The position numbers were made by a program, and so were the translations under genes. Shown here piece after piece: positions 5,889 through 63,306 of a stretch of DNA of 64,000 nt. Each line of letters opens with the position of its first letter. The stretch's first letter is position 1. Below the pieces are notes generated by a model. The model had not been told where the DNA came from. It was given only the letters and a program-made list of their open reading frames with translations, and made no database searches. The stretch is from Rhodoferax sp. (GTDB taxonomy: Bacteria; Pseudomonadota; Gammaproteobacteria; Burkholderiales; Burkholderiaceae_C), in the NCBI RefSeq assembly GCF_028714215.1, contig NZ_JAQTMS010000002.1:62001-126000 (forward strand), given 5' to 3'.

Positions 5889-7199
5889 CTAACCGGGTCG
5901 GCCGTCCAGGCGGGGGCGACCAAACCAGCGGCCATACCGGAGAGCCCAGCCTAGCGTGGCCGCTGTCCATGCTGCAATCGCCAGCAGCGTGAACGGTATG
6001 CCAGCTGCGGGCCAAATTGCCGCGACGACACGCAACAGCACGGCGGCCTGCAGTATCCAGTACAAGGTCCACGCTATGTTGTCGGCGGCGACAGGTCGGC
6101 CACCGCGTCCACTGCTTACCCGCGTGGTCATCGCGAACATGGTGGCGCCTAGATAGCCCATGGTCATGGCATGCAAAGGAGCCAGTCCCAAAGAGAGTTC
6201 TCCACCCGTCAGCGCCATCAGTGCGTGGGACAAGGCATTCAGCGCGAAAGAAATTCCAAGCCACGCGAAGCCGCCGTGAAGCATGGCGAGTAGTCGGATT
6301 TTCAGGCTCTGCACCAGACCCCAGCGCACGGCCAACCAGAGCAGCAAAAGGGAGGCTGGTAATTCGACGGTGACCTGACACCACCGCACTGCGGCTGACA
6401 AAGGCCAGTACCACAATTCCGCTGCGCTAAACACCGCCTCCAGCCACAGCATAGCCACCGTCGCCCACAGCAACCACAGCGGCCGCCAGGCATCAAGAAA
6501 CGGAACTGCGCTGGCGCCGAAAAATGGAATCATGCGATGCGATACCACCGCGAATATCGTCGCAATAAATCCCCATAGACCCACCTGTGTGGCGGTTCGC
6601 AAGAGTAGCTCTGAATTGCTGGCCAGTGATGCAGTGATGGACCACAACGCCATGGCACCTATGCCGCACGCGAATGCCACCACGCGGGCGTGGACACGGT
6701 CCGGCAGATTGCTTCGTCGCACCATCGTGAAGAACTTCACGCTCAAAATTGTCCAGCCGGTAGCGACCGATGTCATGCCTGCGCAGGACACGAGAGCGTA
6801 GGTATGAAAGCCGATCAGGACGCTGACCCAGCCCACCAGCATAAGCATCAAGCCGGGCAACAAACTGCGCGCTGTGACCTCCCGAAGGCCCAGCCACTTG
6901 GGTCCGGCCGTAAAAAGAAAACCGGCGAAAAACAGTGGCATGAACGCCATCGTCATCAGCAACCCATGCGCCGCCGAAACCGGCACGGTCCAGAACAATG
7001 CCGTGCCGAGAACTCGCGTCATCAATACGATTGCCCACCATATGGAACTCATCACCAGCATGAGCGCAGCCATGAAGAAAGCCAGGCGGTGGGGTGCGGC
7101 CAGTAGCCAGATCGGCCTCCAGGGTGGAGTTACACGGTTGCAATTCACTGCACGTGAAGTGTTGGTTAGGGCCGCTGGCTTGCTGGGGATCGGTTTCAA
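5889..7199 (-). CDS. nnrS: NnrS family heme/copper membrane protein
   Basis: 436 residues with about twelve hydrophobic segments. Family hallmarks are PHRLAFF near residue 36, SAAHGLLMTMAFMPLFFAGF near 85-105 and LFTAGPKWLGL. NnrS proteins occur with denitrification or nitrosative-stress genes and protect against nitric oxide. The start is a TTG at 7199 preceded by GAGG at a seven-base distance; no ATG fits better. The conserved histidines thought to bind heme/Cu are present in several membrane segments. The neighbouring ygbA, also read leftwards 220 bases upstream, supports a role in NO defence. Confidence 0.9.
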   Translation of the reverse strand: MKPIPSKPAALTNTSRAVNCNRVTPPWRPIWLLAAPHRLAFFMAALMLVMSSIWWAIVLMTRVLGTALFWTVPVSAAHGLLMTMAFMPLFFAGFLFTAGPKWLGLREVTARSLLPGLMLMLVGWVSVLIGFHTYALVSCAGMTSVATGWTILSVKFFTMVRRSNLPDRVHARVVAFACGIGAMALWSITASLASNSELLLRTATQVGLWGFIATIFAVVSHRMIPFFGASAVPFLDAWRPLWLLWATVAMLWLEAVFSAAELWYWPLSAAVRWCQVTVELPASLLLLWLAVRWGLVQSLKIRLLAMLHGGFAWLGISFALNALSHALMALTGGELSLGLAPLHAMTMGYLGATMFAMTTRVSSGRGGRPVAADNIAWTLYWILQAAVLLRVVAAIWPAAGIPFTLLAIAAWTAATLGWALRYGRWFGRPRLDGRPG

Positions 7200-7419
7200 T
7201 GCTTTTCCTCTCCCATCGATGCGGAGTCATTCATCAAAATGCTTGCGTCGGGCGTCATATGGACCTCACATCTCCCTATATCGAAGCCGGCTGAGATTAG
7301 ATACATTCACGCTGCCGGCCGCAGCGGTCATTCTGTTTCATACTTTGAATGGGTTTTTTACGCGCACTGCGGACTTCGACGCAAAAACGGTGAGGCATCA
7401 ATCCTATTGCAGTTAACTG

Positions 7420-8866: not shown

Positions 8867-9190
8867 ATGACGTTCGTTGTAACCGAGTCGTGCATCAGTT
8901 GCAAATATACCGACTGTGTCGATGTGTGCCCGGTGGATGCCTTTCGTGAAGGTTCCAACTTCCTGGTAATTGATCCAGACGAATGCATTGACTGCGCGGT
9001 CTGTGTTCCAGAGTGCCCAGTCAACGCGATCTTTGCAGAAGAAGACGTACCCGCCGACCAGCAGGACTTCATCGCACTGAATGCAGAACTGGCGCCAAAG
9101 TGGAAAGTCATCACCCGAACCAAGGCGGCTCTTCCCGATGCTGACGAATGGGCCTGCGTGACGGTCAAACGAGCAGAGCTCAAGCGTTGA
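8867..9190 (+). CDS. fdxA: 7Fe ferredoxin FdxA
   Basis: 107 residues, the standard FdxA length. The first cluster region [19 protein letters not shown] carries the altered Cys spacing of a [3Fe-4S] site. The second, [16 protein letters not shown], is a classic [4Fe-4S] C..C..C...CP box. The C-terminal tail ([17 protein letters not shown]) is also typical. It is a small cytosolic electron carrier; its partner is often an FAD/NAD(P) oxidoreductase encoded next to it, of which only a stub remains here (9220-9267). Its position downstream of the DUF2249 gene may place it in the same stress-responsive transcript. Confidence 0.93.
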
Positions 9191-9219
9191 TGCAGGCACA
9201 AGCCGCAGACCTCACCGAT

Positions 9220-9267
9220 ATGCAATTCAAAGTTGCCATACTGGGTAGCAAGACGCCTCGTTCATGA
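9220..9267 (+). pseudogene. Stub of an FAD/NAD(P)-dependent oxidoreductase
   Basis: Immediately after fdxA an ATG at 9220 opens MQFKVAILGS and then diverges into KTPRS and a stop. MQFKVAILGSGPAG is how I remember the N-terminus of the pyridine-nucleotide oxidoreductase commonly paired with FdxA. The frame here breaks exactly inside the GxGxxG dinucleotide-binding loop. The rest of the gene (normally over 400 codons) is absent before the phosphoesterase gene at 9413, so this looks like a deletion scar. The match is short, hence modest confidence. Confidence 0.4.
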
Positions 9268-9412
9268 CGGCGAACACTCTATGACGATCGGTCGGAAAGG
9301 AACCAGCACGTTTCCCATCATCTTTCATGGCTAATGCATCACAGCATGATATAAATGGATAAACTGGGCAGGGTTCAGCCAGGTCGGTTATCTGGCTGGC
9401 AGATGTCCCCCT

Positions 9413-10204
9413 ATGAAACTCAATATTCTGTCTGACCTGCATCTCAGCTGCGGTGCATTGGAGATACCCCGCAATGACGCCGATGTGGTCATTCTGGCAG
9501 GTGATGTCGCCCGCCCGAAGGAGGCGGCTTCCTGGGCCCTGGGCTTTGCCAAACCAGTGCTTTACGTTCCCGGCAACCACGAGTTCTACGGCGGCAGCAT
9601 TGCGGGTGCCGTAGATGAGCTCAAACAACTGTGCGCCGGAACGAATGTTCGCATTCTCGACAATGACCAAGTGATTATCAAAGGGGTACGTTTTCTGGGG
9701 ACCACCCTATGGACTGATTTCATGCTTTGGACTGACAACGAGCAACGGTCGCTGGCGATGCGTGAGGCGCAACGTTTCATGCGTGATTTCAGCATCATCC
9801 ATGTGGACGAGCCCATGGCAAGACTGTTCGCGCCCGATGACGCCGCCGCCCTGTGCCGCATTGACGCCCAGTGGCTTGAAAGCCGGCTGGCCGAGCCCCA
9901 TGCGGGGCCGACGGTCGTCATCACGCACCATGCACCTTCGCGCCAAAGTATTCATTCGCGGTTTGCCGGCTCATGGCTCAATGGCTGCTTTGTATCCGAT
10001 CTGCAGCATCTGGCTGACGGTCAGCGCGCGCAATTGTGGGTGCACGGTCATACCCATGACAGTTTTGACTACATGCTCAACGGCACACGGGTGGTGTGCA
10101 ACCCGCGAGGCTATGCAAAGGAAGGGGTGAACGAGAACCCCTTGTTCGACAGTCATTTCATGGTTCAAATCGGGTCTTGGAAGCAAGGCGCGACGCAGGA
10201 GTAA
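9413..10204 (+). CDS. Metallophosphoesterase (calcineurin-like)
   Basis: 263 residues. All metal-binding blocks are present: ILSDLHLS (D.H), VILAGDVAR (GD), VPGNHEFYGG (GNHE), VITHHAPS (H) and WVHGHTHDSFDY (GH.H). This is a complete binuclear-metal phosphoesterase of the calcineurin superfamily; whether it acts on a nucleotide, phosphodiester or protein cannot be read from sequence. No signal peptide is seen, so it is probably cytosolic. It is the first gene of a run with five-base or overlapping junctions leading into the P450 gene. Confidence 0.9.
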   Translation: MKLNILSDLHLSCGALEIPRNDADVVILAGDVARPKEAASWALGFAKPVLYVPGNHEFYGGSIAGAVDELKQLCAGTNVRILDNDQVIIKGVRFLGTTLWTDFMLWTDNEQRSLAMREAQRFMRDFSIIHVDEPMARLFAPDDAAALCRIDAQWLESRLAEPHAGPTVVITHHAPSRQSIHSRFAGSWLNGCFVSDLQHLADGQRAQLWVHGHTHDSFDYMLNGTRVVCNPRGYAKEGVNENPLFDSHFMVQIGSWKQGATQE

Positions 10205-10209
10205 ATCGT

Positions 10210-10521
10210 ATGCACACATGGTTCGCAAAGCAGCTCGGCGATGGGGTTCTGGCTTACGCGCCGAAGGCTCAGATCCAGGACCTGTTCCCGGCTCTGTTTG
10301 CGGCTGCTGGCCGACCGGCGGCGATGGCCGTTTTTACGCGGCATGAATTGGAGGGACGCCTGCAATGCGAGGTGGTGGCCTATTTCTCGCCGGCGGCCGA
10401 AGTCATTGCCCGGCAGATGGACGCCCAAGCGTGTGAAAAACCTTTCCGCGCCGAACTTGACTTGCTGGCCGGCGAGCCGGGCTGCTGGGCAGTTTTGTTT
10501 CCTGAAGGGCAATCGCCATGA
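10210..10521 (+). CDS. Hypothetical protein in P450 operon
   Basis: 103 residues beginning MHTWFAKQLGDGVLAYAP, with a good AGGAG ribosome site five bases after the phosphoesterase stop. The stop overlaps the P450 start by four bases (ATGA), which argues for a real, co-translated gene. No signal peptide, membrane segment, Cys cluster or recognised motif is visible. The sequence is mixed alpha/beta with a central stretch RHELEGRLQCEVVAYFSP. Function is unknown; its location suggests a role linked to the P450 or to the phosphoesterase. Confidence 0.75.
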   Translation: MHTWFAKQLGDGVLAYAPKAQIQDLFPALFAAAGRPAAMAVFTRHELEGRLQCEVVAYFSPAAEVIARQMDAQACEKPFRAELDLLAGEPGCWAVLFPEGQSP

Positions 10522-11702
10522 GCCATACGCGTTCCCAGGACTGGGATCCGAAGTCGGCTGCGGTGCTGCGCGATCAGCGCGCCGCCTTCGACGAGATGCG
10601 TGAACGCTGTCCGGTCGCGTACAGTGACTTACTGGGATGGTCGCTGTTTCGGCACGAGGACATTGTCCGCGTCCTGAACGACCACGTCACGTTCAGCAGC
10701 GTGGTTTCGAAAAATCTCTCGGTTCCCAACGGCATGGATCCCCCCGAACACGGCTCATACCGCCGCGTCATCGAGCGCTATTTCGCGCCGCAAACCATGC
10801 AGGAGTTCGAGCCACAATGCCGCAGCCTCGCAGCCGACCTGGTGCGCTCCCTGTACGGTCGCGCGGAGCTGGAACTGATGGGTGATTTTGCCCATCCATT
10901 TGCGGCTCGGGTGCAATGCGCGTTTCTCGGTTGGCCAGCCAGCATGCACGAACCGCTGCGCCGGTGGACGCAGAAGAACCACGCCGCCACCCTGGTCCAG
11001 GATCGGCAAGCGATGGCGGAGATCGCCCAAGAGTTCGCCGGTTACGTCACGAAGCTGCTGCAGCTGCGCCGCGCCGCTGACATCCAGAGCACCCAGGATG
11101 TCACGACCGGTTTGACCAGCCAACAGGTCAAGGGGCGACCGTTGAACGACCAAGAGATCACCAGCATCTTGCGCAACTGGACGGTGGGTGAGATCAGCAC
11201 GATCTCGGCGGCGGTCGGCGTTGTGGCCCAGTACCTGGCGGAACACACCGATTTGCAGCAACAAGTGCGCACGCAGCGAGGCCTGCTGCCCGATGCCATT
11301 GAGGAGATTTTGCGGCTGTACGGTCCGCTGCTGGCGAACCGGCGCGTGACCACCCGCGCCGTCGAGATCGGCGGGCGCTCCATCGGTGCCGGCGAGCGAA
11401 TTTCCCTGAACTGGGTCGCAGCCAATCGGGATGGCCGTGTCTTCACCGATCCGCAGTCATTCCGGCTGGACCGCGATGCAAGCGCCAATCTGCTGTACGG
11501 CGCGGGTATCCACGTCTGTCCCGGGGCGCCACTGGCGCGCATGGAGTTGCGAGTAGCAGTGCAAGCACTGCTTGACGGCACCACCCGCATCGACCCGATG
11601 ACGCAGCGCCCGCCAAGCCACGCGCTGTTCCCCGCTTCGGGCTATGCCACCGTGCCCGTGCAAATCACGTTTGCGTCGCAGCCCGTCGTCCACCATCAAT
11701 GA
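10518..11702 (+). CDS. Cytochrome P450
   Basis: 394 residues, typical of a soluble bacterial P450. The K-helix ExxR is in AIEEILRLYGPLL near residue 260. The heme-ligand loop is LLYGAGIHVCPGAPLARME near residue 325, with Cys as thiolate ligand; the first position is Tyr rather than the usual Phe. The I-helix region (WTVGEISTISAAVGVVAQYL) lacks the classic AG.(D/E)T: ISTIS stands where the oxygen-activating acid/Thr pair is expected. The start overlaps the preceding gene and the stop overlaps the SLAC1 gene (ATGA). The substrate is unknown, and no dedicated redox partner is adjacent except fdxA 1.3 kb upstream. Confidence 0.92.
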   Translation: MSHTRSQDWDPKSAAVLRDQRAAFDEMRERCPVAYSDLLGWSLFRHEDIVRVLNDHVTFSSVVSKNLSVPNGMDPPEHGSYRRVIERYFAPQTMQEFEPQCRSLAADLVRSLYGRAELELMGDFAHPFAARVQCAFLGWPASMHEPLRRWTQKNHAATLVQDRQAMAEIAQEFAGYVTKLLQLRRAADIQSTQDVTTGLTSQQVKGRPLNDQEITSILRNWTVGEISTISAAVGVVAQYLAEHTDLQQQVRTQRGLLPDAIEEILRLYGPLLANRRVTTRAVEIGGRSIGAGERISLNWVAANRDGRVFTDPQSFRLDRDASANLLYGAGIHVCPGAPLARMELRVAVQALLDGTTRIDPMTQRPPSHALFPASGYATVPVQITFASQPVVHHQ

Positions 11703-12823
11703 CTTCGCCAAGCACCGATAGCGCAACGGGCGAGCGCCCGGTCAAGCCCGCACTGCAGACGCGCCTGCGGACTGATCTGGCCGGCCTGGCACCGGCGTAT
11801 TTCGGCCTGGTGATGGCCACCGGCATCGTCTCCATTGCCGCCCATCTGCAGGGCTGGTCACAGCTTGCGCGCACGCTGTTCTACCTGAACAACGTGATGT
11901 ATGCGGTCTTGTGGCTGCTGACGCTGGGACGCCTGCTGTGGTTTCCCCGGCGTCTTTTCAGTGACTTGATCGATCATCTGCGCGGTCCCGGATTTTTTAC
12001 CATGGTGGCCGGGACCGGCGTGCTGGGGGCGCAGTATGTGTTGTTGCTTGCCGACTATCGCATCGGACTGCTGCTGTGGATTGTGGCGCTGGTGTTGTGG
12101 CTTGGGCTGACCTATGCGATCTTTACGGCCTTCACCGTCAAGGAACACAAGCCAACGCTGGACCAAGGCATCAGCGGCGCCTGGCTGCTGGCGGTGGTGG
12201 CGACGCAATCGGTTGCCGTGCTGTCTGCGATGCTGGCGGCGCATGTGGCCCAGCCCTACCGGCTGGAGATGAACTTTCTGGCGCTGTCGATGTGGCTGTG
12301 GGGCGGCATGCTGTACATCTGGATGATGTCGCTGATTTTCTACCGCTACACCTTCTTCCGGTTCGCGCCGGGGGACCTGTCTCCGCCCTACTGGATCAAC
12401 ATGGGTGCCATGTCGATCTCGACGCTGGCCGGGTCGCTGCTGATCATCAATGCGCACGATGCGCCGTTCCTGTTGTCGTTGTTGCCTTTTCTCAAGGGGT
12501 TCACGGTGTTCTATTGGGCCACCGGTACCTGGTGGATTCCGATGCTGGTGTTGCTGAGCATCTGGCGCCACGTCTACAAGCGCTTTCCGATGCACTATGA
12601 CCCGCTGTACTGGGGGGCGGTGTTCCCACTTGGCATGTACGCAACCTGCACGCACCAAATGTTGCACGCGATGGAATTTGAACTTCTGGAATTTTTGCCG
12701 AAACTTTTCTTGATCGTGGCGCTGGTGACCTGGAGCCTTGCATTTATAGGCCTGCTGCTCGATCTGCTGCGGCGTTTTGACTTGCTACCGGCGCTTGCCC
12801 CTTTCACCGAAAAGCATTTGTGA
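11699..12823 (+). CDS. SLAC1/TehA family anion (C4-dicarboxylate/tellurite) channel-transporter
   Basis: 374 residues with about ten hydrophobic helices, as in TehA/SLAC1/Mae1. The N-terminal signature LAPAYFGLVMATGIVSIAAH matches this family. The central phenylalanine-rich and glycine-rich helices (ALSMWLWGGMLYIWMMSLIF, PPYWINMGAMSISTLAG) are also family-like. Members move anions such as malate, sulfite, chloride or nitrate, or confer tellurite resistance when overexpressed, so the substrate is uncertain. The gene is translationally coupled to the P450 gene by a four-base overlap. Confidence 0.85.
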   Translation: MTSPSTDSATGERPVKPALQTRLRTDLAGLAPAYFGLVMATGIVSIAAHLQGWSQLARTLFYLNNVMYAVLWLLTLGRLLWFPRRLFSDLIDHLRGPGFFTMVAGTGVLGAQYVLLLADYRIGLLLWIVALVLWLGLTYAIFTAFTVKEHKPTLDQGISGAWLLAVVATQSVAVLSAMLAAHVAQPYRLEMNFLALSMWLWGGMLYIWMMSLIFYRYTFFRFAPGDLSPPYWINMGAMSISTLAGSLLIINAHDAPFLLSLLPFLKGFTVFYWATGTWWIPMLVLLSIWRHVYKRFPMHYDPLYWGAVFPLGMYATCTHQMLHAMEFELLEFLPKLFLIVALVTWSLAFIGLLLDLLRRFDLLPALAPFTEKHL

Positions 12824-15005: not shown

Positions 15006-15593
15006 CTACGTGGCACAGGCCGGAGTCTTGAAAACACCTAGTTCCGTGACCACGTAATCCATCCGAATGTCGAATTCTTGCGGGTGAATTGTTTGAACAC
15101 GCGAGATCTCAAACGCAACGCCAATCGTGAGCGGCCTGGGGGCAAGTGCCGCCAAGGTCCGGTCGTAAAAGCCCCCACCATACCCAAGGCGGTAGCCCCT
15201 GCCATCAAATCCCACCGGCGGCATCAAGAAAGCCTGTGGCTCCACGATATCAGTGCCGTCAGGTACTGGTATATCGTATATGCCCTTGGTCATGGATGCG
15301 CCGGGCCACCACTGTCGAAACCGCAGCGCCCCATTTCTTTGCACCACTTCCGGTAGCGCCGCCCGTGCGCCTGTGTCGCGAAAATGACGAATAGCAAAAC
15401 GTGGATCAAACTCACCTTGGTAGGGCCAGTACATTCCAATGGTCATGCTGTTGAGCATTGGAAATGCGTTTATCAGAAGGCGGGAGATTTCATTGCTCCA
15501 TACATGACGTTGCTCAGGGCTGATTGTCAATCTCCTGGCAAGCATTTCTTTTCGCAGGAAAGCTTTCCTTAATTTGATTTCTTCGGAATTCAC
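15006..15593 (-). CDS. 5-formyltetrahydrofolate cyclo-ligase family protein (copy 1)
   Basis: 195 residues. Family features are an N-terminal basic helix (IKLRKAFLRKEMLARR), IGMYWPYQGEFDP for the folate/ATP region, MPPVGFDGRGYRLGYGGGFYDRTL as the C-terminal signature, and IGVAFEISRVQTIHPQEFD. The enzyme converts 5-formyl-THF to 5,10-methenyl-THF using ATP. A second, different copy is at 38382-38981; identity between the two is restricted to motifs, so they are not a recent duplication. It lies downstream of the suf operon on the same strand, but a 77-base gap and lack of overlap suggest it is separate. Confidence 0.88.
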   Translation of the reverse strand: MNSEEIKLRKAFLRKEMLARRLTISPEQRHVWSNEISRLLINAFPMLNSMTIGMYWPYQGEFDPRFAIRHFRDTGARAALPEVVQRNGALRFRQWWPGASMTKGIYDIPVPDGTDIVEPQAFLMPPVGFDGRGYRLGYGGGFYDRTLAALAPRPLTIGVAFEISRVQTIHPQEFDIRMDYVVTELGVFKTPACAT

Positions 15594-16822: not shown

Positions 16823-18069
16823 GCGAATACCTTTTGAACACTGCGAATGCCAGCCACCAGCGCGTCCACGTCGGCCAGCGTGTTGTAGAACGCAAACGAG
16901 GCGCGCGAGGTGGCGACCACGCCCAGGCGGGCCATCAAGGGCTGCGCGCAGTGGTGGCCGGTGCGCACCGCAACGCCTTCCTGGTTCAGCACGGTTCCCA
17001 CGTCGTGGGGGTGAATACCCTGCACGGCAAATGACAGCACCGCGGCCTTGTCCTGCGCGGTGCCCAGCAGGCGCACACCGGGCAGTGCGCTCAAGTGTTC
17101 AGTTGCATGACGCAGCAATTCGTGCTCGTGCGCTGCAATGGCTGGCATACCAATGCTGCTGAGGTAGTCCACCGCGGCGCCCAGGCCGATGGCGGCGGCG
17201 ATGGGCGGCGTGCCGGCCTCGAACTTGTTCGGAATGGCCGCGTAGGTGGTTTTCTCAAACATGACGGTATGGATCATGTCGCCACCGCCCTTGAACGGCT
17301 GCATCGCTTCGAGCAGCGCGGCGCGGCCATACAGGATGCCGATACCGGTCGGGCCGCACATCTTGTGGCCCGAGAAGGCATAAAAATCACAGTCCATATC
17401 CTGCACGTCCACTACCAGGTGCGGTGCGGCCTGCGCGCCATCGACCAGTACCGGCACGCCGCGCGCATGGGCGAACGCGATCATTTTTTTCACCGGATTG
17501 ATGCTGCCCAGCGCATTCGAGACGTGGCCGACGCTCACCAGGCGGGTGCGTTCGTTGAAGAGTGCTTCATACTCGTGCAGCAGCAGTTCACCGGCGTCGT
17601 TGATGGGCACTACGCGAAGGATTGCGCCTTTCTCGGTCGCCAGCATTTGCCACGGCACAATGTTGGAGTGGTGCTCCAGTACGGTCAAGATAATTTCGTC
17701 GCCAGCGTTGATGTTCTTGCGGCCCCAGCCATGCGCCACCAGGTTGATGCCCTCGGTGGTGCCGCTGGTGAAGATCACCTCGCGCGCTTCACGCGCATGG
17801 ATAAAGCGTTGCAGTCTGGCGCGCGCCGCCTCGTAGGCGATGGTGGCGGTTTCGGACAGGTAATGCACCGCGCGGTGAATGTTGGCGTGCTCCGTGGTCT
17901 GGTAGCGCAGCAGGCGATCGATCACCGGTTGCGGCATCTGGCTCGACGCCGCGTTGTCCAGATAGACCAGCGGCTTGCCCGCCACCGTGAGCTTGAGTAT
18001 CGGAAAGTCAGCGCGAACGCGGGCCACGTCAAAAGCCGGCAGCGTAGGGAAGGCGGGTGTGTTGCTCAT
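16819..18069 (-). CDS. sufS: Cysteine desulfurase SufS
   Basis: 416 residues, class V PLP aminotransferase fold, group II desulfurase. Visible landmarks are YLDNAASSQMPQPVIDRLLR, the GTTEGINLVAHGWG phosphate site, VLVDGAQAAPHLVVDVQDMD, the PLP lysine in FYAFSGHKMCGPTGIGILYG, and RTGHHCAQPLM, which holds the catalytic Cys. The enzyme converts cysteine to alanine and a persulfide that SufU accepts. It is coupled by four-base overlaps to sufD upstream and sufU downstream. Confidence 0.95.
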   Translation of the reverse strand: MSNTPAFPTLPAFDVARVRADFPILKLTVAGKPLVYLDNAASSQMPQPVIDRLLRYQTTEHANIHRAVHYLSETATIAYEAARARLQRFIHAREAREVIFTSGTTEGINLVAHGWGRKNINAGDEIILTVLEHHSNIVPWQMLATEKGAILRVVPINDAGELLLHEYEALFNERTRLVSVGHVSNALGSINPVKKMIAFAHARGVPVLVDGAQAAPHLVVDVQDMDCDFYAFSGHKMCGPTGIGILYGRAALLEAMQPFKGGGDMIHTVMFEKTTYAAIPNKFEAGTPPIAAAIGLGAAVDYLSSIGMPAIAAHEHELLRHATEHLSALPGVRLLGTAQDKAAVLSFAVQGIHPHDVGTVLNQEGVAVRTGHHCAQPLMARLGVVATSRASFAFYNTLADVDALVAGIRSVQKVFA

Positions 18070-19390
18070 GGCTGGCCTGTGGTCTGCTGGAGCACCGTCT
18101 GCTCAAGCTGGCGTCGCAGTGACGCGACGGGAATGCGGTTGATGACTTCAGCACCGAAGGCGTAAGTCAGCAGATTGCGCGCCACCGCCTCTGGCAAGCC
18201 GCGGCTTTGCAGGTAGAAAACCTCCTCGCTGTCGAGCTGGCCGACGGTGGCGCCGTGCGTGCATTTCACGTCGTCGGCAAAAATTTCGAGTTGCGGCTGG
18301 GTATCAACCAGCGCTTGACCAGAGAGCAGCAGGTTGCGGCTGGATTGTGTTGAAACGGTTTTTTGCGCCCCAGGGCGAACCATCACCTTGCCGTTAAAGA
18401 CCGCATGCGCGGCCCCGCCCACAATGCATTTGTGCAACTGGCGGCTGACGCCGTGTGGCTTGGCGTGGTCGACGAAAGTGTGGGTATCGGCCAGTTGTTC
18501 GCCACCAATCAATGCCAATCCGTCCAGCGTGCATTCGGCCACATCGGCGGTCTGCAGCAGCTTGAGGTCGAGCCGCGAAATCTGCCCGCCCTGGGCGATG
18601 CTGACCGAGTGGTAGCGGCTGGCAGCGCCGAGCGACACCGCGCAACTGGCCATGTGAAAGGCTTGTCGGCTTTCACGCTGGATGCGAATATGCGCGACCT
18701 GCGCGTTCGCGCCTAAAGCCAGCTCAGCGACTGAATTGGTGAAATAGGCACCTGGGTGCAAGGCCACATAGTCTTCGATCAAAGTCACTTTGCTTCCCGC
18801 ACCGGCCACCAGCAACAGGCGTGGGTGGCTGGCCACCTCGGGCTGCGTCGAAATAAAGAGCACATGCACGGGTGTGGCAAGTGCTGTGTCGCACGGCATG
18901 ACCAGCACGGCCGCATCCGTCAGAAAAGCGGTGTTGAGTGCCGCAAACAATGCATCTTGAAATACAGCGTGCTGGCCTAGATGCTGCGCAATGCTGGACG
19001 CCTGCGTGGCCATCCTGGATGCCAAGGTGCCCACGACCAAGCTGGCATCGGAGCAGACGCTGGAGAGTTGTGGCGCATGAACGCCGTCCACAAAAACCAG
19101 CCGCGTCGTCGCCTCTTCGATGTGGAGGTGTTCCATATCGTCCGGTTGCAAGGCACTCGGCGTGCCCAGGGGATGAAACGACTGTTGGGTAAAGGCTGCC
19201 AGGCTGGTGAAACGCCAGGCTTCATCGTGCTTGCTGGGCAGCCTGAGTGCGCCCACACGCTCCAGTGCCTGGGCGCGCAGTGTTTTGAGCCACTGCGACT
19301 GCGTTGGCACCGCGCGGCCCGGGGTTTGCGTCAGGCCTGCAAGCAGGCCATCCAGAACCCCTCGCTCAGTGACAAGCGCAGTCCGGCTGT

Positions 19391-56107: not shown

Positions 56108-56461
56108 TTACTGGGACAGAATCCAGCCGACCAGATTCTTGATCTCGGCCGCGTCCTTGGTGGCGATGACTTTGTGTTCTTCTTCGGTGCCATCTTGCTG
56201 CTTGACCTTGGGCGCTTTGGTCACGGCGTCTATCAGTTTGGCCTCGGCATCTGCTTTGCCCTTCCATTTCGCCGCTATCTTCTTGAATGAAGCCGCTTTT
56301 TTGTCCTTGTCTATCGCATGGCATTTCAGGCAGTCACTCTTCTTTGCCAACGCCGCAGCGGCGTCGGCATTGACGGCGGCGTAGGAAGCGCTGGAAAACG
56401 CGACCGCCACAACACCCAGGACTGACAAAGCGACCAGTTTTTGAGGAATTGAAAGTTTCAT
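56108..56461 (-). CDS. Small class I cytochrome c
   Basis: 117 residues from the ATG at 56461 with AAGGAAA upstream. A signal peptide (MKLSIPQKLVALSVLGVVAV...ASYAA) leads to a periplasmic domain with one heme site, KKSDCLKCHAIDKDKKAASF (CxxCH). A late KDAAEIKNLVGWILSQ helix lies where the family's C-terminal helix ends in 'i..W.l.l'. No Met ligand is obvious near the expected position: the region reads KQQDGTEEEHKVIATKDA. It resembles cytochrome c551/c552-type carriers. It may carry electrons for the nearby multiheme module, but it is transcribed away from it. Confidence 0.85.
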   Translation of the reverse strand: MKLSIPQKLVALSVLGVVAVAFSSASYAAVNADAAAALAKKSDCLKCHAIDKDKKAASFKKIAAKWKGKADAEAKLIDAVTKAPKVKQQDGTEEEHKVIATKDAAEIKNLVGWILSQ

Positions 56462-56879
56462 TGCAAGGTTTCCTTTTGAGTTCCGTCTCATTGCATTTGA
56501 CGGATGAATACCATCATTGACACCGATAACAGCCTGCGGGTCGGGATGACCAAAACAGGTGCCGCATCATTTTGCGCGGCTTCAAGGCGCTGCTTGACAA
56601 CATCTGAGAGGTCTCTGATCTGGGTCAACGCAAAAGTGGTCAGTCCGGACACCAGGGCCGATCACACCCGAGTGGCTTCGAATTTCACCGCATATAAAAA
56701 ATGTTCCCTGCTTTGCCTCCGTATCCCGTTGATTGCACGGGACTTTCCTGTTTTTACGCGTAAAAATGTATATAAAAATTGTACTTTGATTCACTAAAAA
56801 TCATCAAAAACCAACTTCCACCTTCTGCGAACTCATGTAAGTAATTGATATTTAATAGGATTTAGATAGATTTTGGATG

Positions 56880-56894
56880 TGGCACGGGGCTTGC
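56880..56894 (+). promoter_or_regulatory. Sigma-54 (RpoN) promoter
   Basis: TGGCAC, five bases (GGGGC), then TTGC reproduces the -24/-12 consensus exactly. It lies 42 bases before the first receiver gene, in an AT-rich leader. The nearby NtrC-family activator gene (60251-61675) makes it a credible functional promoter for the downstream receiver and cytochrome genes. The rest of 56462-56879 shows no gene; activator-binding sites are expected there but I could not define one. Confidence 0.8.
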
Positions 56895-56935
56895 GTTCAG
56901 TCTCTCGCAAGCACGAGATGCCGGAGGTAAACCAA

Positions 56936-57355
56936 ATGAATGAGAAAGCCAAGATCCTGGTCGTTGACGACGAGGAGGTCATTCGACTCAGTTATCTCCG
57001 AGCCCTCTCCGGAGAACGGTGCAAGGTGGAGGCGGTAAATAACGGCAGCGATGCCCTGCAAATGATGGGGCAGTATCCGTTCGATGTCGTGCTGCTGGAT
57101 CAGCGCATGCCAGGAATCGACGGCATGTCGGTGTTGAAGACCATCAAGGAAAAGTGGCCCGATAGCGAGGTGATCATGATCACCGGGTACCCCGCGGTTG
57201 AGTCCGCCAAGGAGGCGGTAACCCTGGGCGCCTATGACTACCTGGCCAAGCCGATAGGCCCGGACGACGTCATCAACGCGGCCAACGGCGCCATGCAACA
57301 TAAAAGGTGGGCTTTGCACCATGAACGCCAGGCGCAGTGCGCCAACGTTCGGTAG
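56936..57355 (+). CDS. Single-domain response regulator (receiver only)
   Basis: 139 residues; GGAGG eight bases before ATG 56936. A complete receiver: ILVVDDEEVIRLSYLRAL with the acidic pair, VVLLDQRMPGIDGMSVLKTI with phospho-Asp 55, and EVIMITGYPAVESAKEAVTL and YLAKPIGPDD with the Thr/Lys switch residues. No output domain follows, only a short basic tail. It is the first gene after the sigma-54 promoter. It may act as a phosphate sink or a partner of the kinase at 61672-63306. Confidence 0.9.
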   Translation: MNEKAKILVVDDEEVIRLSYLRALSGERCKVEAVNNGSDALQMMGQYPFDVVLLDQRMPGIDGMSVLKTIKEKWPDSEVIMITGYPAVESAKEAVTLGAYDYLAKPIGPDDVINAANGAMQHKRWALHHERQAQCANVR

Positions 57356-57434
57356 CGATCAAACGATGTGGGAAATGTGTTTCGGACTTGTAGCAATTTT
57401 GCTGCTGAAGCTGTTTTGATGAAGGAGAAATGTC

Positions 57435-58019
57435 ATGGGTGCTCTGCGTAAGGTGCTGGTTGTCGATGACGACCCCGTGGTCGGCAAGAGTTTCAACCGC
57501 GTTCTTTCCGAAGAAAAAGGCTATCGGGTCATCACCGCCCAAAATGCCGCCGAAGCGTTGGAGAGGCTGCGCGAACAAGAATACGACGTCGTCTTTACCG
57601 ACATCAAGATGCCCGGCATGGACGGCGTCGAATTGACGGAACGGGTGAAGGCCAGCCGGCCCTGGACACCCGTGGTCATTGTGACCGGTTATGGCACCAC
57701 CGCCAATGAGGAAAGGGCCAAGGCGGCAGGCGTATCGGACTTTATACACAAACCCCTGTCGCCTGAAATGATTGAGGAAAGCGCCGTTCAAGCGCTGCGC
57801 CACCCGGCGCCAGAAAGTGTTGTCAAGGCAAGCGCGAGCCCGCTCCAAAGTGTCCCGGGCGAGGCGCCTGAAGAGGGTGGCAGGATCAAGAACATCGCCC
57901 TTTTCCTGGCCGCTCCCTTCATCGGTTTGGCTTATGCCGTGATGCTCCCCTTCGTCGGCCTTGGCATGCTGGCCTGGCTTGGCGGGCGGGCCTTGCTGAC
58001 GAAGACTCCTAAAGAATGA
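57435..58019 (+). CDS. Receiver protein with C-terminal membrane tail
   Basis: 194 residues. Residues 1-125 form a canonical receiver: KVLVVDDDPVVGKSFNRVLS, FTDIKMPGMDGVELTERVKA with Asp 56, PVVIVTGYGTTANEERAKAA, and FIHKPLSPEMIEE. A linker (about 126-148) is followed by a hydrophobic region, NIALFLAAPFIGLAYAVMLP and FVGLGMLAWLGGRALL, long enough for one or two membrane spans. That is unusual for a receiver, which is normally cytosolic. The tail could tether the protein to the membrane beside the multiheme cytochrome or the sensor kinase. Confidence 0.85.
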   Translation: MGALRKVLVVDDDPVVGKSFNRVLSEEKGYRVITAQNAAEALERLREQEYDVVFTDIKMPGMDGVELTERVKASRPWTPVVIVTGYGTTANEERAKAAGVSDFIHKPLSPEMIEESAVQALRHPAPESVVKASASPLQSVPGEAPEEGGRIKNIALFLAAPFIGLAYAVMLPFVGLGMLAWLGGRALLTKTPKE

Positions 58020-58145
58020 AGCTTTGAGCTACATCACAAATCCCGCAATGAATTCTCACGCCAGAAATAGGCAAACCGCATCCGGGGGAGACAATCTTCC
58101 GGATGGTTTTGTTGCCGGCAAAAATCAACAGATAGGGGAACCCGA

Positions 58146-59549
58146 ATGAAAAGCTCCCGCACGATGGGCCACCTGCTCCAGTCATCCCGCGCCATGCGTC
58201 TGATGGTGACGAGCCTGCTTGCGCTGGTCCTGACCTTTGTGGGTTTGAACGCCCACGCGGCCCAGGCCGAGTTGTCCAAGGAGGACAAAGCTTGCCTGTC
58301 TTGTCACGACAAGGAGGGTTTGGTCAAAACACTGGAGAGCGGAGAAATTCTCTCCCTGGGTATTTCGACCAAAGCCTACGTCGAGTCGATGCACCTCGGA
58401 ACCAGTTGCGAGGACTGTCATTCGAATCTCGACGGAAAAACCCATGGCAAGGTAAAGAAGCCGATCAGCAGCAAACGCGATTTCTCGCTCACCATGCGTG
58501 AAACCTGCCGCGACTGTCACAAGAAGAAATTCACGCAGTACGAAGACAGCGTCCACGCAGCGTCGATAAAAGCCGGCAGCAAGAAGGCTCCTTTATGTTC
58601 CGATTGCCACAATCCGCATACCGTGCGCTCGGTAAAAATCGTCGCGCCGATCACGGACACCCCTTGCGCCAAATGCCACCAGGATATCTTCAAGGCCTAT
58701 GCCAAGGATGTCCATGGCCAGGAGCGTATTGCCAAAGGCATCAGCGCCCCGCTGTGCGCGGGTTGCCACCAGGCGCATGCCGTCCAGGCCGCCTCCTTGG
58801 GCGATGGCGTGAAAGACGCCTGCCTTGCCTGCCACAAAGAGGCGGTAACTCAGCACAAGGACTGGTTGCCCAATACGGCACTGCACTTTGAGGCGATCTC
58901 CTGCCCGGTCTGTCATGCGCCGGATGCGCAACGCCGGGTCAATCTCAGGCTCTATGACGGCACGGCAAAACGCCAGGTGGCGGAAAAAACCGGTGTGCCG
59001 AAATTCCAAAAACGTACCGATGCCGCCGACAGCAAGGACATGGGTCTGGACGAGCGGGCCTTGTGGAGCTTGCTGAAGGAATTCAATCAGGACGGCGGCG
59101 ACGGCAAAATGGTGTTGCGCGGCCGCCTGGAAGTGCGCTCGGGCGTCGAAGCCCATCAGTTGAGCGACAAGTCCAAAGCCATCAAGGACTGCGATACCTG
59201 CCACAAGGAAGGTGCCGCCGCCTTTCAAAGCGTGACGCTGACGATCGCCGGTCCGGATGGCAGGCCGTTGCGCCATGGCATCCAGAAAGATGTGTTGAAT
59301 TCCTTGACCTCGATGGACTCGGTGCGCGGGTTTTACGCCATCGGCAGCACCCGCATCAAGCTGCTCGACACCTTGCTGGTACTGGTCTTGCTGGGCGCCA
59401 TCAGCGTACCGCTGGGGCACATGACGATCAAGCGCTTGTTCAAGAGCGTAAGGGAAAAACTCGAGGCCGAGAGACTCGCGGCCCTTGCGACTGCCGACCA
59501 GCCAGCGCCAACCGGCCATCGTCAGGCCGATGACAACGTCTCAAAATAG
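58146..59549 (+). CDS. Nine-heme membrane-anchored cytochrome c
   Basis: 467 residues with nine CxxCH motifs: CLSCH, CEDCH, CRDCH, CSDCH, CAKCH, CAGCH, CLACH, CPVCH and CDTCH. An N-terminal hydrophobic signal/anchor (MVTSLLALVLTFVGLNAHAA) and a C-terminal span (LLDTLLVLVLLGAISVPLGH) place the heme domain in the periplasm. The arrangement (eight hemes in the first 265 residues, one near 355) resembles multiheme donors of respiratory chains. A short cytoplasmic tail follows. With the b561 subunit 12 bases downstream it could pass electrons between quinones and periplasmic acceptors. Substrate unknown. Confidence 0.88.
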   Translation: MKSSRTMGHLLQSSRAMRLMVTSLLALVLTFVGLNAHAAQAELSKEDKACLSCHDKEGLVKTLESGEILSLGISTKAYVESMHLGTSCEDCHSNLDGKTHGKVKKPISSKRDFSLTMRETCRDCHKKKFTQYEDSVHAASIKAGSKKAPLCSDCHNPHTVRSVKIVAPITDTPCAKCHQDIFKAYAKDVHGQERIAKGISAPLCAGCHQAHAVQAASLGDGVKDACLACHKEAVTQHKDWLPNTALHFEAISCPVCHAPDAQRRVNLRLYDGTAKRQVAEKTGVPKFQKRTDAADSKDMGLDERALWSLLKEFNQDGGDGKMVLRGRLEVRSGVEAHQLSDKSKAIKDCDTCHKEGAAAFQSVTLTIAGPDGRPLRHGIQKDVLNSLTSMDSVRGFYAIGSTRIKLLDTLLVLVLLGAISVPLGHMTIKRLFKSVREKLEAERLAALATADQPAPTGHRQADDNVSK

Positions 59550-59561
59550 CAGGAAATCGCC

Positions 59562-60206
59562 ATGCAAAAACTCTATATCCATCCCCTCCCGGTCAGGCTC
59601 TGGCACTGGACCAACGCCTTCGGTTTCGTCCTGCTGATCGCCACCGGGCTGCAGATCAGGTACCTGGACCTGGTCCAGGTGCTGTCGTTCAGGACGGCGG
59701 TGGTCGCCCACAACTGGATTGGCTTTGTCCTGATCGCCAATTTTTTTGTCTGGCTGGGCTTCTATCTGTTCACCGACAAGATCAAGGTCTATCACCCTGA
59801 ATTGAGTCCGCGAAAGTACTTCCAGGCCAGCTTCCGGCAGATGCAGTTCTATGGCTATGGCATTTTCAGGGGCGAGCCCAATCCGCATCATCCCAGCGCC
59901 TACCGCAAATTCAATGCCTTGCAAAGCATGATGTACCAGATCATCATGATGCTGCTGGTGCCTATCATGTTCTTCACGGGCTTGCTGATGTGGGACGTGA
60001 CGCGCTTTTCTTCCATGGTGGAACTGTTCGGCGGCGTGCGCGTCGTCGACACCGTGCACGTTCTGCTGTTCATCGTATTCAGCGGCTTCATCATCGTGCA
60101 CGTTTACCTGGCCAGCCTGGGCCACACGCCGACGGCACATTTCAAGGCCATGATCACCGGCTACGAGGAACTCGAAGACGAACCGAAAACTGGTGCCGGC
60201 TCCTGA
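59562..60206 (+). CDS. Cytochrome b561 / hydrogenase-type b subunit
   Basis: 214 residues with four to five membrane helices. The heme-binding histidines are visible: HPLPVRLWHWTNAFGFVLLI with His in helix 1, VVAHNWIGFVLIANFFVWLG in helix 2, and VVDTVHVLLFIVFSGFIIVH with two His in the last helix. This fits the Ni/Fe-hydrogenase b-type/formate dehydrogenase gamma family, which links quinone to periplasmic redox proteins. It lies 12 bases after the nine-heme cytochrome, so the two probably form a membrane electron-transfer pair. Confidence 0.9.
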   Translation: MQKLYIHPLPVRLWHWTNAFGFVLLIATGLQIRYLDLVQVLSFRTAVVAHNWIGFVLIANFFVWLGFYLFTDKIKVYHPELSPRKYFQASFRQMQFYGYGIFRGEPNPHHPSAYRKFNALQSMMYQIIMMLLVPIMFFTGLLMWDVTRFSSMVELFGGVRVVDTVHVLLFIVFSGFIIVHVYLASLGHTPTAHFKAMITGYEELEDEPKTGAGS

Positions 60207-60250
60207 AAAATGGCGGCGCGCCGTTGCGCGCTGCTCAGCGGTACCTCAGT

Positions 60251-61675
60251 TCAGGAGGGCTGGGATTCGTCGGGGCCGTACTCGGTGTCGCGGACCCGAA
60301 TGTTGTACTTCTTCATCAGGGCCTGAAAATTGGAGCGCTGCATGCCGGTTTCTTCCGCGCTTTTGGTGACGTTGGACGCGTTTCGTTTCAGCGTCTCCTG
60401 AATAAACAGTTTTTCAACATCCTCCACCGATTTCTCCCTGGCGATTTTCTTCAATCGCTTGAGGTCCTCACCGGTTCTCGGGACTTCCAGATCAAGCCGC
60501 GGCGAAGAATCGATGATGTTGACCAGGTGCGCCCGGTGAATGACTTTGTCGGAAGCCAGGATCACGGCCCGATGTATCGTGTTTTCCAATTCCCTGACGT
60601 TGCCCGGCCAGTCATAGTTGACCAGCGTGCTCATGGCGGCCTCCGAAATTTCGGACACCGGCTTTTCCAGTTCATTGCAGAACGTCTTGAGGAAGTGAAA
60701 AGCCAGTGCCGGGATGTCGTCGCGGCGTTCTCTCAAGGCCGGCGCGTGGATCGGAAAGACATTGATCCGGTAGTAGAGATCCTCCCGGAAGGTTCCTTCG
60801 GCGACCATCGCCTTGAGATCCTTGTTGGTGGCGGTGATCAGTCTGACATTGGTCTTCTGGGTGACGGTGCTGCCGACCGCCCTGAATTCGCGCTCCTGGA
60901 TGACGCGCAGCAATTTGGCCTGCGTTGCCAGCGGGATATTGCCGAACTCGTCAAGGAAAAGAGTGCCATTGTTGGCGATCTCGAACATGCCGCGCTTGTT
61001 CACCACCGCGCCGGTAAAAGAGCCCTTGGTGTGTCCGAACAATTCGCTTTCCAGCAGATTCTCGCTGAGCGTGTTGCAATCCACGGTGACAAACGGCTGG
61101 TCCTTGCGCAGACTGTTGTAATGAATGGCCCGGGCAATCATTTCCTTGCCGGTTCCGCTCTCCCCGGTGATCAGCACGGTGGTGTTGGTAGGCGCGCACT
61201 TGGCAATCAGTCCATAGACCGCCTGCATCGGCGCACTGGCGCCAATGATGTTCTCAAAACGGTATTTGGAGCCGACTTCGGTCTTCAGATTGCGGTTCTC
61301 CTGCAGCAAGCGGCGTCGCTCCAGCGCGCGATCCACCACGTGCTTGAGTTCATCCGGGTCAAACGGTTTAGGCAGGTAATCAAACGCGCCCAGCTTCATG
61401 GCCTTGACCGCGGTCTGAATCTGGGACAGCCCGGTCACCATGATCACGTCAACGTCAGGATGTCTCTCCTTCACCTGCTGCAACACCTCCAGGCCGTCGA
61501 CGCCAGGCATCATGATGTCGAGAATCATCAGGTCGTACTCGGTCTCGTCGACTTTCCTCAAGGCCTCCTGGCCGTCCAGCGTGGAATCAACGAGATAACT
61601 GCTGTCGCTGAGGATGCGCCGACAACTCCGGATGACAATTTCCTCGTCGTCAACAATCAGAATTCTGGCACTCAT
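60251..61675 (-). CDS. NtrC-family sigma-54-dependent response regulator
   Basis: 474 residues. The receiver (1-120) has ILIVDDEEIVIRSCRRIL and phospho-Asp 53 in DLMILDIMMPGVDGLEVLQQ. The AAA+ domain has Walker A ITGESGTGKEMIARAIHYNS, the sigma-54 contact loop GSFTGAV (GAFTGA with Ser for Ala), and Walker B NGTLFLDEFGNIPL. The C-terminal Fis-type HTH is ETLKRNASNVTKSAEETGMQ with RSNFQALMKKYNI. It overlaps the kinase gene by four bases. It is the obvious activator for the sigma-54 promoter at 56880. Confidence 0.94.
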   Translation of the reverse strand: MSARILIVDDEEIVIRSCRRILSDSSYLVDSTLDGQEALRKVDETEYDLMILDIMMPGVDGLEVLQQVKERHPDVDVIMVTGLSQIQTAVKAMKLGAFDYLPKPFDPDELKHVVDRALERRRLLQENRNLKTEVGSKYRFENIIGASAPMQAVYGLIAKCAPTNTTVLITGESGTGKEMIARAIHYNSLRKDQPFVTVDCNTLSENLLESELFGHTKGSFTGAVVNKRGMFEIANNGTLFLDEFGNIPLATQAKLLRVIQEREFRAVGSTVTQKTNVRLITATNKDLKAMVAEGTFREDLYYRINVFPIHAPALRERRDDIPALAFHFLKTFCNELEKPVSEISEAAMSTLVNYDWPGNVRELENTIHRAVILASDKVIHRAHLVNIIDSSPRLDLEVPRTGEDLKRLKKIAREKSVEDVEKLFIQETLKRNASNVTKSAEETGMQRSNFQALMKKYNIRVRDTEYGPDESQPS

Positions 61676-63306
61676 GGGCTACTCTCATCTGGATGGCGTT
61701 CGGTTTCATTAAAAGGCGGCGTTATCGGCAGATAGACATGAAAAGTAGTACCCGCGCCAACAACGCTTTCAACACTGATCCTGCCGCCGTGGGCTTTGAC
61801 AATGCCATAACTGACCGACAAGCCCAGTCCGGTTCCCTTGCCAACCTCCTTGGAGGTAAAAAACGGATCGAAAATCCGCTGTAGATTGGCTTGCGGAATA
61901 CCGCAACCGGTGTCGCTGACGGCGATTTCAACCATCGGGAAGGATTCGGACTCCGGCTTTTTCGAGCTACCGGCAATCAGGGCACGGCTTTCCACCGAAA
62001 TCTTGCCTTTGCCTTCAATCGCTTGCTGGGCGTTGACCAGCAAGTTCATGACGACCTGTTTCAGCAGATCGGCGTCTCCCCACACCTGGGGCAAATCGGG
62101 ATCGAGCTTGGTCGCGATCTCGATCTGCTTCAAGGAGGCTGGACGCTCGACAAAGCGCACGGTGTCTTCAATCACCTGGTTGAGGTTGAAAAACCCCTTC
62201 ACCGGAACCTTCTCCCGCGCGAAGTCAAGCAGCCGCTTGATGATGCTGGCACAGCGCTTGGTCTCGCGGATCACCAGGTCCAAATCCTCCGCGTCCTCGC
62301 TCCCCTCCGGCGCTTTCTTGCGCATCAAGGAGGTGAAAGTCAGTACGCCGGTCAGCGGGTTATTTAACTCATGGGCAATGCCGGACGCCAGCACGCCGAT
62401 CGAAGCCAGTTTTTCGCCTTGCGCGACCTCGGCCTTGGCGGCCAGAAGCTCCTGCGTCCTCTGCGCAACTTTCTGCTCCAGTGTTTGCACCAATTCCTGC
62501 ATCTCTCGTCGTGATTCATTGAGGGCGCCGGTCATCTGGTTGAAAGAGCCGGCAACGCGCCCAAATTCATCATCACTGCGCACCGGAATATTTTGGTCTA
62601 GGCTGCCGGCAGCGATCTTCTTGGCACCGGACTCCAGGTCTTTCAGGGGCACGTAGATCAGGCGCTGAAGCAAGACGCCGATGCTGATGGAGAAAAGGAG
62701 AATGAAGCCGACCGAGCTGCCAATGACGTGAACGGCGTGCGTCTTCATTGACTGGTCCAGCTCATCCAGGGAGTAGGCAATATCGACGATGCCAAGCACC
62801 GACTGACTGACCGGGTGCTCATGGCATGACGCCGATGAGCAGGAGGGCTCGTTGCGTATCGCGTGCATGGTGCCAAGAACTCGGTGCCCGTCCGCTGTTT
62901 CAATTATTTTCCAGCGCTTGTCGTCGGGGACCTGCTTCAGGGGCTGACTGGTCAGGTGGCAGTTGATGCAGGGCTCGTCTTTTTGTTCAACCGAGTACCC
63001 AACTTCTGATTTGCGGTTTGAATGAATGATCGTGCCGTCCTTGCTGATCACCCGGATACGCTCAATGCCTTTTTGCTTGCTGATGTCCTCGATGATCTTC
63101 TCAACAATGTCACGCTTGTTCACCAACATCGTATAGCGGGTGCTGGCAACCACCATTTCTGCAATTTGGGTGACATGTCTGGAAACCACGCTTTGCAGGT
63201 CTTCCTGCCGGTGTTTCAGAAACAGCAGCGTGAACAGGACCATCGCCATTGAAAGGACAATGATCAGATACAGACTGATTTTGAACCTGAGACTATTTTT
63301 GGGCAT
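61672..63306 (-). CDS. Heme-c-motif sensor histidine kinase
   Basis: 544 residues. TM1 lies at about 8-30 and TM2 at about 187-210, enclosing a periplasmic domain with CINCH (113-117) and CSSASCH (156-162), which are a CxxCH and a CX4CH-like heme-c site. HAMP follows (PLKDLESGAKKIAAGSLDQN), then a coiled coil, HisKA with SGIAHELNNPLTGVLTFTSL (phospho-His), and HATPase with NLLVNAQQAIEGKGK, VSDTGCGIPQANLQRIFDPF and GKGTGLGLSVSYGIVKAHGG. Heme in the sensor suggests sensing of redox state or a gas such as NO, CO or O2. It is coupled to the NtrC gene by an ATGA overlap. Confidence 0.92.
   Translation of the reverse strand: MPKNSLRFKISLYLIIVLSMAMVLFTLLFLKHRQEDLQSVVSRHVTQIAEMVVASTRYTMLVNKRDIVEKIIEDISKQKGIERIRVISKDGTIIHSNRKSEVGYSVEQKDEPCINCHLTSQPLKQVPDDKRWKIIETADGHRVLGTMHAIRNEPSCSSASCHEHPVSQSVLGIVDIAYSLDELDQSMKTHAVHVIGSSVGFILLFSISIGVLLQRLIYVPLKDLESGAKKIAAGSLDQNIPVRSDDEFGRVAGSFNQMTGALNESRREMQELVQTLEQKVAQRTQELLAAKAEVAQGEKLASIGVLASGIAHELNNPLTGVLTFTSLMRKKAPEGSEDAEDLDLVIRETKRCASIIKRLLDFAREKVPVKGFFNLNQVIEDTVRFVERPASLKQIEIATKLDPDLPQVWGDADLLKQVVMNLLVNAQQAIEGKGKISVESRALIAGSSKKPESESFPMVEIAVSDTGCGIPQANLQRIFDPFFTSKEVGKGTGLGLSVSYGIVKAHGGRISVESVVGAGTTFHVYLPITPPFNETERHPDESSP

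Follow-up and report, generated by a model that had tools for sequence, protein, structure and literature searches.

Introduction

Metal-respiring bacteria use different quinone oxidoreductases at different acceptor potentials (PMC9129911, PMC12307469, PMC12133095), and the passages of these three reports that were available leave the sensor behind such potential-dependent branches unnamed. CbcBA of Geobacter sulfurreducens, which excerpts describe as a cytochrome of the inner membrane that is required near -0.2 V (PMC9129911, PMC10553843, PMC12307469), is encoded by adjoining genes for a b561-type PF01292 subunit (CbcB, GSU0593) and a heptaheme cytochrome of the doubled-CXXCH family PF09699 (CbcA, GSU0594; PMC7726332, in part). 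In this work we analyze a 64,000-nucleotide stretch of DNA of Rhodoferax sp. (hereafter the window), which contains a block of genes for a nine-heme cytochrome c, a b561-type membrane subunit, two receivers, an NtrC-type activator and a histidine kinase with heme motifs. We propose that this block probably encodes a CbcBA-like cytoplasmic-membrane quinone:cytochrome c oxidoreductase equipped with its own regulatory switch.

Other described systems resemble parts of the block. CbcL, MtrH and MtoC, proposed quinone oxidoreductases of extracellular electron transfer, join a multiheme c domain and a membrane b domain (PMC9129911, PMC6295460, both in part), and in R. ferrireducens two cymA genes and mtrH accompany mtrABC, according to passages of PMC6295460. 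On the sensory side, the sCache_heme domain (DUF3365/Tll0287, PF11845; GSU0582 and GSU0935) has a periplasmic Cache-type fold, carries a covalent heme motif and feeds signalling modules; a 2026 preprint, seen in excerpts, describes single-heme domains of this kind that behave like nitric oxide (NO) sensors when fused to signalling modules (PMC12889525); neither 'CX4CH' nor 'two heme' appears in its text. Among the matches listed for the open-access literature, available as excerpts, no paper on a betaproteobacterial CbcBA or on this gene set was found.

A probable CbcBA-like pair and its candidate regulatory genes

Gene identities were established from the open reading frame (ORF) listing and from family profile searches of the window. 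The original prediction, made from the sequence alone, had described a module of sigma-54 promoter, receivers, cytochrome, b561 subunit, activator and kinase; all of its genes are present, approximately where it had placed them, and the block extends further to the left, up to a mono-heme cytochrome c gene. Its features are the following:

56108..56491, minus strand: mono-heme cytochrome c (PF00034, E 7.1e-6; one CXXCH; the start may be internal)
56768..56784, plus strand: candidate NtrC-type activator palindrome GTATATAAAAATTGTAC, a predicted site (11/14 consensus positions)
56880..56894, plus strand: sigma-54 type promoter box TGGCACGGGGCTTGC (exact TGGCAC-N5-TTGC)
56937..57355, plus strand: RR1, stand-alone receiver (PF00072, Response_reg, E 2.8e-29)
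57435..58019, plus strand: RR2, receiver with a C-terminal hydrophobic hairpin at about 57882-58007 (PF00072, Response_reg, E 2.1e-30)
58146..59549, plus strand: nine-heme cytochrome c, CbcA-like, with signal peptide and C-terminal anchor (nine CXXCH; PF09699)
59562..60206, plus strand: b561-type membrane subunit, CbcB-like (PF01292, E 1.3e-28)
60251..61675, minus strand: NtrC-type sigma-54 activator (PF00072, E 1.6e-33; PF00158, E 1.4e-69)
61672..63306, minus strand: histidine kinase, periplasmic Cache-like domain with two heme motifs (HAMP-HisKA-HATPase; AlphaFold2, Foldseek)
62956..62970, minus strand: sensor heme motif CXXCH, residues 113-117 (sequence)
62821..62841, minus strand: sensor heme motif CX4CH, residues 156-162 (sequence)

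The genes of the NtrC protein and the kinase overlap, both on the minus strand, and RR1 most likely starts at the ATG at 56937, which is preceded by GGAGG.

A CbcBA-like quinone:cytochrome c oxidoreductase is the best explanation for the nine-heme cytochrome and the b561 subunit, whose families, PF01292 and PF09699, are also those of the adjoining cbcB and cbcA genes. The cytochrome shows hydrophobic peaks at 16 and 406, corresponding to the signal peptide and the predicted anchor, and its only strong match in the PDB was 28pb, 'Cytochrome c' (E 1.6e-13, residues 119-383), for which seven CXXCH were counted in the alignment. The b561 subunit shares 32-42% identity with subunits of the Geobacter family, where 34 of 48 genomes have a homologue of the cytochrome. 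The best homologue in that family (E 1.4e-24) is a seven-heme ORF of Geomesophilobacter sediminis, and it adjoins a heme kinase (38% over 515 residues) and an NtrC protein (49%). Thirteen Geobacter-family loci were opened, a hand-picked, non-random set consisting of 12 of the 33 other matching loci plus L138; a b561 gene lies directly behind the CbcA-like gene in 12 of them, an NtrC orthologue within 20 kb in nine, and a full-length orthologue of the kinase, always with both heme motifs retained, in five. In the Geobacter family, homologues of the pair often lie near orthologues of the NtrC protein and the kinase, with other gene orders.

NtrC-family activators have the GAFTGA loop and a Fis-type helix-turn-helix as defining features. 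The window's protein possesses the receiver and the sigma-54 AAA+ domain that the family requires, and its sigma-54 contact loop reads GSFTGA in place of GAFTGA. With regard to Geobacter, Joshi et al. reportedly found in 2021 that BccR, a regulator of the sigma-54 type, induces cbcBA as the potential falls.

Several points weigh against our assignment. The HTH_8 profile reached only 18.7 bits with the NtrC protein, below its cut-off of 22. Six of the 13 Geobacter-family loci (L171-L173, L176, L177 and L180) also hold a less similar NtrC protein (35-41%) together with a different kinase, and that protein could be BccR instead. The cytochrome has only 21-28% identity to those of the Geobacter family and nine hemes, whereas CbcA (PMC7726332, in part) and the versions of the betaproteobacterial relatives L019 and L020 have seven. 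Finally, passages of PMC6246609 treat Geobacter CbcA-OmcQ as an outer-membrane conduit.

Two other identities were discarded for the pair. A fused protein of the CbcL type is ruled out, since CbcL, MtrH and MtoC are single proteins whereas the window has two genes (stop at 59549, start at 59562); the fused type is found elsewhere in the same genome. The name thiosulfate-reductase b subunit was rejected because NF011582 gave 133 bits, less than its cut-off of 204. According to the original prediction, no described system was known to have this exact gene set. This view needs amending with respect to the pair, which resembles CbcBA of Geobacter. The block differs from the CbcBA/BccR system by two additional receivers, the mono-heme cytochrome and a betaproteobacterial host with MtrAB.

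Conservation of the block among betaproteobacteria

Scanning named genomes for the cytochrome yielded 50 loci, 33 of which (L024-L056) hold close homologues (55-82% identity in the best segment). These relatives are mostly metagenome-assembled genomes of betaproteobacteria, chiefly from lakes and groundwater, titled beta proteobacterium, Rhodoferax, Polaromonas, Comamonadaceae, Rhodocyclaceae or Burkholderiales. While the cytochrome is present in all of them by construction, because the scan selects for it, the other genes recur as well: a b561 gene directly behind the cytochrome in all 33, NtrC, in convergent orientation, in 31 of the 32 relatives that could be assessed (it is missing in L044, and the L056 locus stops in b561), the kinase gene following NtrC in 28 of 28 (L025, L030 and L052 end inside NtrC), RR1 in 23 of 23, RR2 ahead of the cytochrome in 29 of 31 (missing in L036 and L039), and a homologue of the mono-heme cytochrome in 22 of 33. 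Flanking PhoH/YbeY or DTD genes were seen in only 10 of the 33, and the block therefore sits in differing surroundings. This recurrence with varying outer flanks, found by the synteny search that the original prediction had suggested, rules out an accidental adjacency; by sequence comparison, the gene set is a conserved block.

The cytochrome was found at E 1e-20 in five of 399 sampled genomes of the order, own genome included. Two of the four other carriers (L018 and L019) hold the full gene set and L020 holds the kinase, NtrC, cytochrome and b561 genes; L017 has the cytochrome/b561 pair without this kinase or NtrC. This locus and L044, where the pair also occurs without these two regulators, argue against a switch belonging to the oxidoreductase. 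Together with the convergent orientation of the two transcription units, they could indicate that the kinase and the NtrC protein are mere neighbours of the cytochrome operon, which another sigma-54 activator would drive. We regard this as very improbable, given the retention of NtrC and kinase genes in nearly all assessable relatives in spite of differing outer flanks, and the recurrence of the association in the Geobacter family in other gene orders.

Other genes accompany the module in some relatives. In L018 (10044-16170) it adjoins genes for another kinase, which has a single CXXCH, for a membrane protein of the NrfD type, an Fe-S protein and a receiver-GCV_H fusion, as well as an ORF with five hemes, and in L017 (11303-13456) and L043 (9236-13699) fused MtrH/CbcL-like multiheme proteins, NapC/NirT-type proteins and mono-heme cytochromes are encoded directly beside it.

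A sigma-54 box and a conserved upstream palindrome

The box at 56880-56894 is the sole exact match to TGGCAC-N5-TTGC in the window. One-mismatch boxes number 13 vs 10.6 expected; being at chance level, they leave only the exact match as informative. In the whole genome 31 exact boxes were found, vs 7 matches to the reversed control. The sigma-54 promoter that had been predicted upstream of RR1 is kept among the relatives: in 21 of the 23 that hold RR1, a box with 0-1 mismatch begins 42-57 bp ahead of the RR1 match, while L049 and L051 have no such box just ahead of it.

Conserved activator sites upstream of 56880, another suggestion of the original prediction, were also sought, and a palindrome is kept about 100 bp upstream of the box. 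The comparison covered 23 promoters (the window, 20 relatives, L018 and L019), leaving out L026 (114 bp ahead of the box) and L049 and L051 (no box); a site at 1139 in L051 was judged to lie within coding DNA and excluded. TGTAC is present at -112 to -88 in 21 of these promoters, compared with 0, 2, 0 and 0 in four control segments, and the consensus anchored on it is TGTATAAAAAATTTGTACTTTG. The 80 bp ahead of the box have a mean ungapped identity of 35% across the 23 promoters. The palindrome has thus been kept while nearby DNA diverged; it is therefore likely an activator site, and it fits an NtrC-type enhancer.

Among 191 sigma-54-like sites from all the loci examined, 23 rows (21 distinct sites) score at least 10/14 at the expected distance, and all of them precede RR1 or RR2 with the sole exception of L019 at 7330; these sites are mutually homologous and hence not independent evidence. 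Where RR2 has its own sigma-54 box (L046-L049), the TGTAC half-site is present there too. Scoring was possible at 29 of the 31 exact boxes of the own genome (the upstream DNA of L096 was too short, and one C91 box had no locus): the window's box scores 11/14 and the other 28 all score 9 or less. When the whole genome was scanned for the palindrome, allowing two mismatches, 8 matches (4 places) were obtained vs 12 in the reversed control, below the control level, so that no wider regulon can be claimed; the window's own palindrome has three mismatches and was missed by this search. At L019 7330 (minus strand), a one-mismatch box and a related palindrome lie ahead of a gene (6476-7264) whose product has two CXXCH and a Tat-like N-terminus, a possible extra target.

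The receivers RR1 and RR2

Neither RR1 nor RR2 has an output domain. Residues D11, D12, D56 and K106 of RR2 are conserved in 14 aligned relatives, and RR1 shows the usual receiver motifs by eye; both may therefore be phosphorylated. At its C-terminus RR2 has a hydrophobic hairpin repeat, about 42 residues long (57882-58007) and without a Pfam match, of which relatives have one to three copies; small stand-alone proteins made of two such repeats are also encoded (L034 16924-17307 and 18797-19222; L035 near 14008), behind a one-mismatch sigma-54 box. This distribution suggests that RR2 is tethered to the membrane. As the structure prediction of RR2 was of low confidence (pLDDT 48.9), the hairpin rests on sequence alone. 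RR1 and RR2, whose genes open the operon, might act as competitors for phosphate or keep the signal near the membrane.

A sensor kinase with two heme motifs

The kinase had been predicted to carry periplasmic CxxCH motifs. Heme motifs are indeed present, as one CXXCH plus one CX4CH and not as several CXXCH. The CXXCH as well as C156, C161, H162, H164, H44, M60 and M147 are invariant in 32 of 32 aligned kinases, the second motif being CX4CH in all except L020, where it is CX3CH. The sensor domain is predicted by AlphaFold2 to be a Cache fold with two heme loops: the model (pLDDT 74.5, loops below 50; no heme included) has a Cache-like topology and places the heme motifs in the beta2-beta3 and beta4-beta5 loops. 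Foldseek matched it to the Cache domain of WalK (E 9.8e-10) and to the heme sensor GSU0935 (3b42; E 2.4e-5), the latter with poor superposition (rmsd 15.5). By sequence the domain had no meaningful match in the PDB (best E 2), and the PF11845 profile did not match it in the window; among 21 sensor members, 12 gave sub-threshold PF11845 (Tll0287-like) matches, the best with E 0.0025 at the permissive limit. By itself, the sensor domain was detected, as a weak match, in only one other of 229 genomes of the class. Kinase-less copies of the sensor lie near CbcBA-like genes in L169 (12393-13199), L178 (13378-14319), L174 (12643-13518) and L138 (about 11528-12232); those of L174 and L138 are without CXXCH.

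We propose that the domain with the two heme motifs would read the periplasmic redox poise (or NO), that the kinase would then phosphorylate the adjacent NtrC protein, and that the latter, bound at the palindrome near 56776, would initiate transcription at the 56880 box. An NO-sensing kinase, with an operon that answers nitrosative or denitrification conditions instead of redox potential, would agree with the NO-sensor properties that excerpts of PMC12889525 describe for sCache_heme domains with a single heme when these are fused to signalling modules, and with the structural match to GSU0935. Yet the window's sensor has two motifs (CXXCH and CX4CH) in separate loops, its similarity to Tll0287 is only sub-threshold, and the genes around it encode respiratory cytochromes in two distant lineages; we thus find a dedicated NO sensor distinctly improbable. 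As to redox sensing, a more specific proposal, possible though offered only tentatively, is that the two-heme Cache kinase is a sensor of redox potential that switches on a CbcBA-type branch in the Geobacter family and in these betaproteobacteria: two hemes differing in potential or ligation would register the poise of the cytochromes in the periplasm, and the tethered RR2 with its hairpin repeats would set the threshold. About 7 kb of DNA hold the candidate heme sensor, the activator, a promoter with a conserved candidate site and the oxidoreductase they would regulate, with related pieces in two distant lineages. Having them together makes the question of redox sensing directly testable, and this module a promising system in which to study how bacteria gauge redox potential.

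Relation to MtrAB and extracellular electron transfer

Of the 37 genomes with the cytochrome, 32 have MtrB/PioB (TIGR03509) over the cut-off and 34 have a match at E 1e-3. In the order sample MtrB/PioB was over the cut-off in 37 of 399 genomes, among them all five with the cytochrome (Fisher p 5e-6, uncorrected for kinship). MtrB lies on the contig of the cytochrome in G103, at a distance of about 4 kb, and in G322, at about 11 kb. Speaking against a functional link, three of the 37 genomes (G646, of 0.9 Mb, G648 and G652) gave no match and two remained below the cut-off, and in the own genome the module and the mtr cluster are on different contigs.

The mtr cluster of the own genome, on contig C32, comprises a ten-heme ORF at the edge, a ten-heme ORF of MtrA size, MtrB, three further large ORFs (10, 10 and at least 8 heme motifs, the last one incomplete), two NapC/NirT-type (CymA-like) genes at 15559 and 16245, and an MtrH/CbcL-like fused frame of 694 aa (17247-19259). 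These are the same kinds of genes as in R. ferrireducens (mtrABC, two cymA and mtrH; PMC6295460, in part), while the window's module stands at another locus and has regulators of its own. In the 26 of 38 cytochrome-bearing genomes covered by these tests, MtrH/CbcL-like genes were found in 24 and NapC/NirT-type genes in 16. As the own genome already has mtrAB, CymA-like and MtrH/CbcL-like genes, the window pair looks like an additional, separately regulated quinone branch.

In the electron path that we propose, electron exchange with quinones would take place at the b561 subunit. The membrane-anchored nine-heme cytochrome would relay the electrons to carriers in the periplasm, of which the neighbouring mono-heme cytochrome may be one, and these would deliver them to the MtrAB conduit, whose genes lie elsewhere in the genome; the module would then be an inducible branch alongside the CymA-like/MtrH-like route. 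Electrons could instead run inwards, from Fe(II) or another outside donor through a conduit of the Mto/Pio type, with the b561 subunit reducing quinone. TIGR03509 covers both MtrB and PioB, CymA and the CbcL/MtrH/MtoC types occur in reducers as well as oxidizers (PMC6295460, in part), and CbcBA is proposed, in passages of PMC10553843, to run in reverse in Seep-SRB2. Nevertheless, the own mtr cluster, with several large surface-type multihemes, two CymA-like genes and an MtrH-like gene, resembles that of the Fe(III) reducer R. ferrireducens (PMC6295460, in part), and we consider electron uptake unlikely. We favour the outward direction. The module would give lake betaproteobacteria that bear MtrAB what is probably a further quinone branch.

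Another MtrB-like frame of the own genome, some 1150 aa long, lies at about 8895-12311 on the minus strand of L113 (C20:33000-52000), with diheme-type ORFs alongside; long MtrB-like frames resembling it occur in several relatives.

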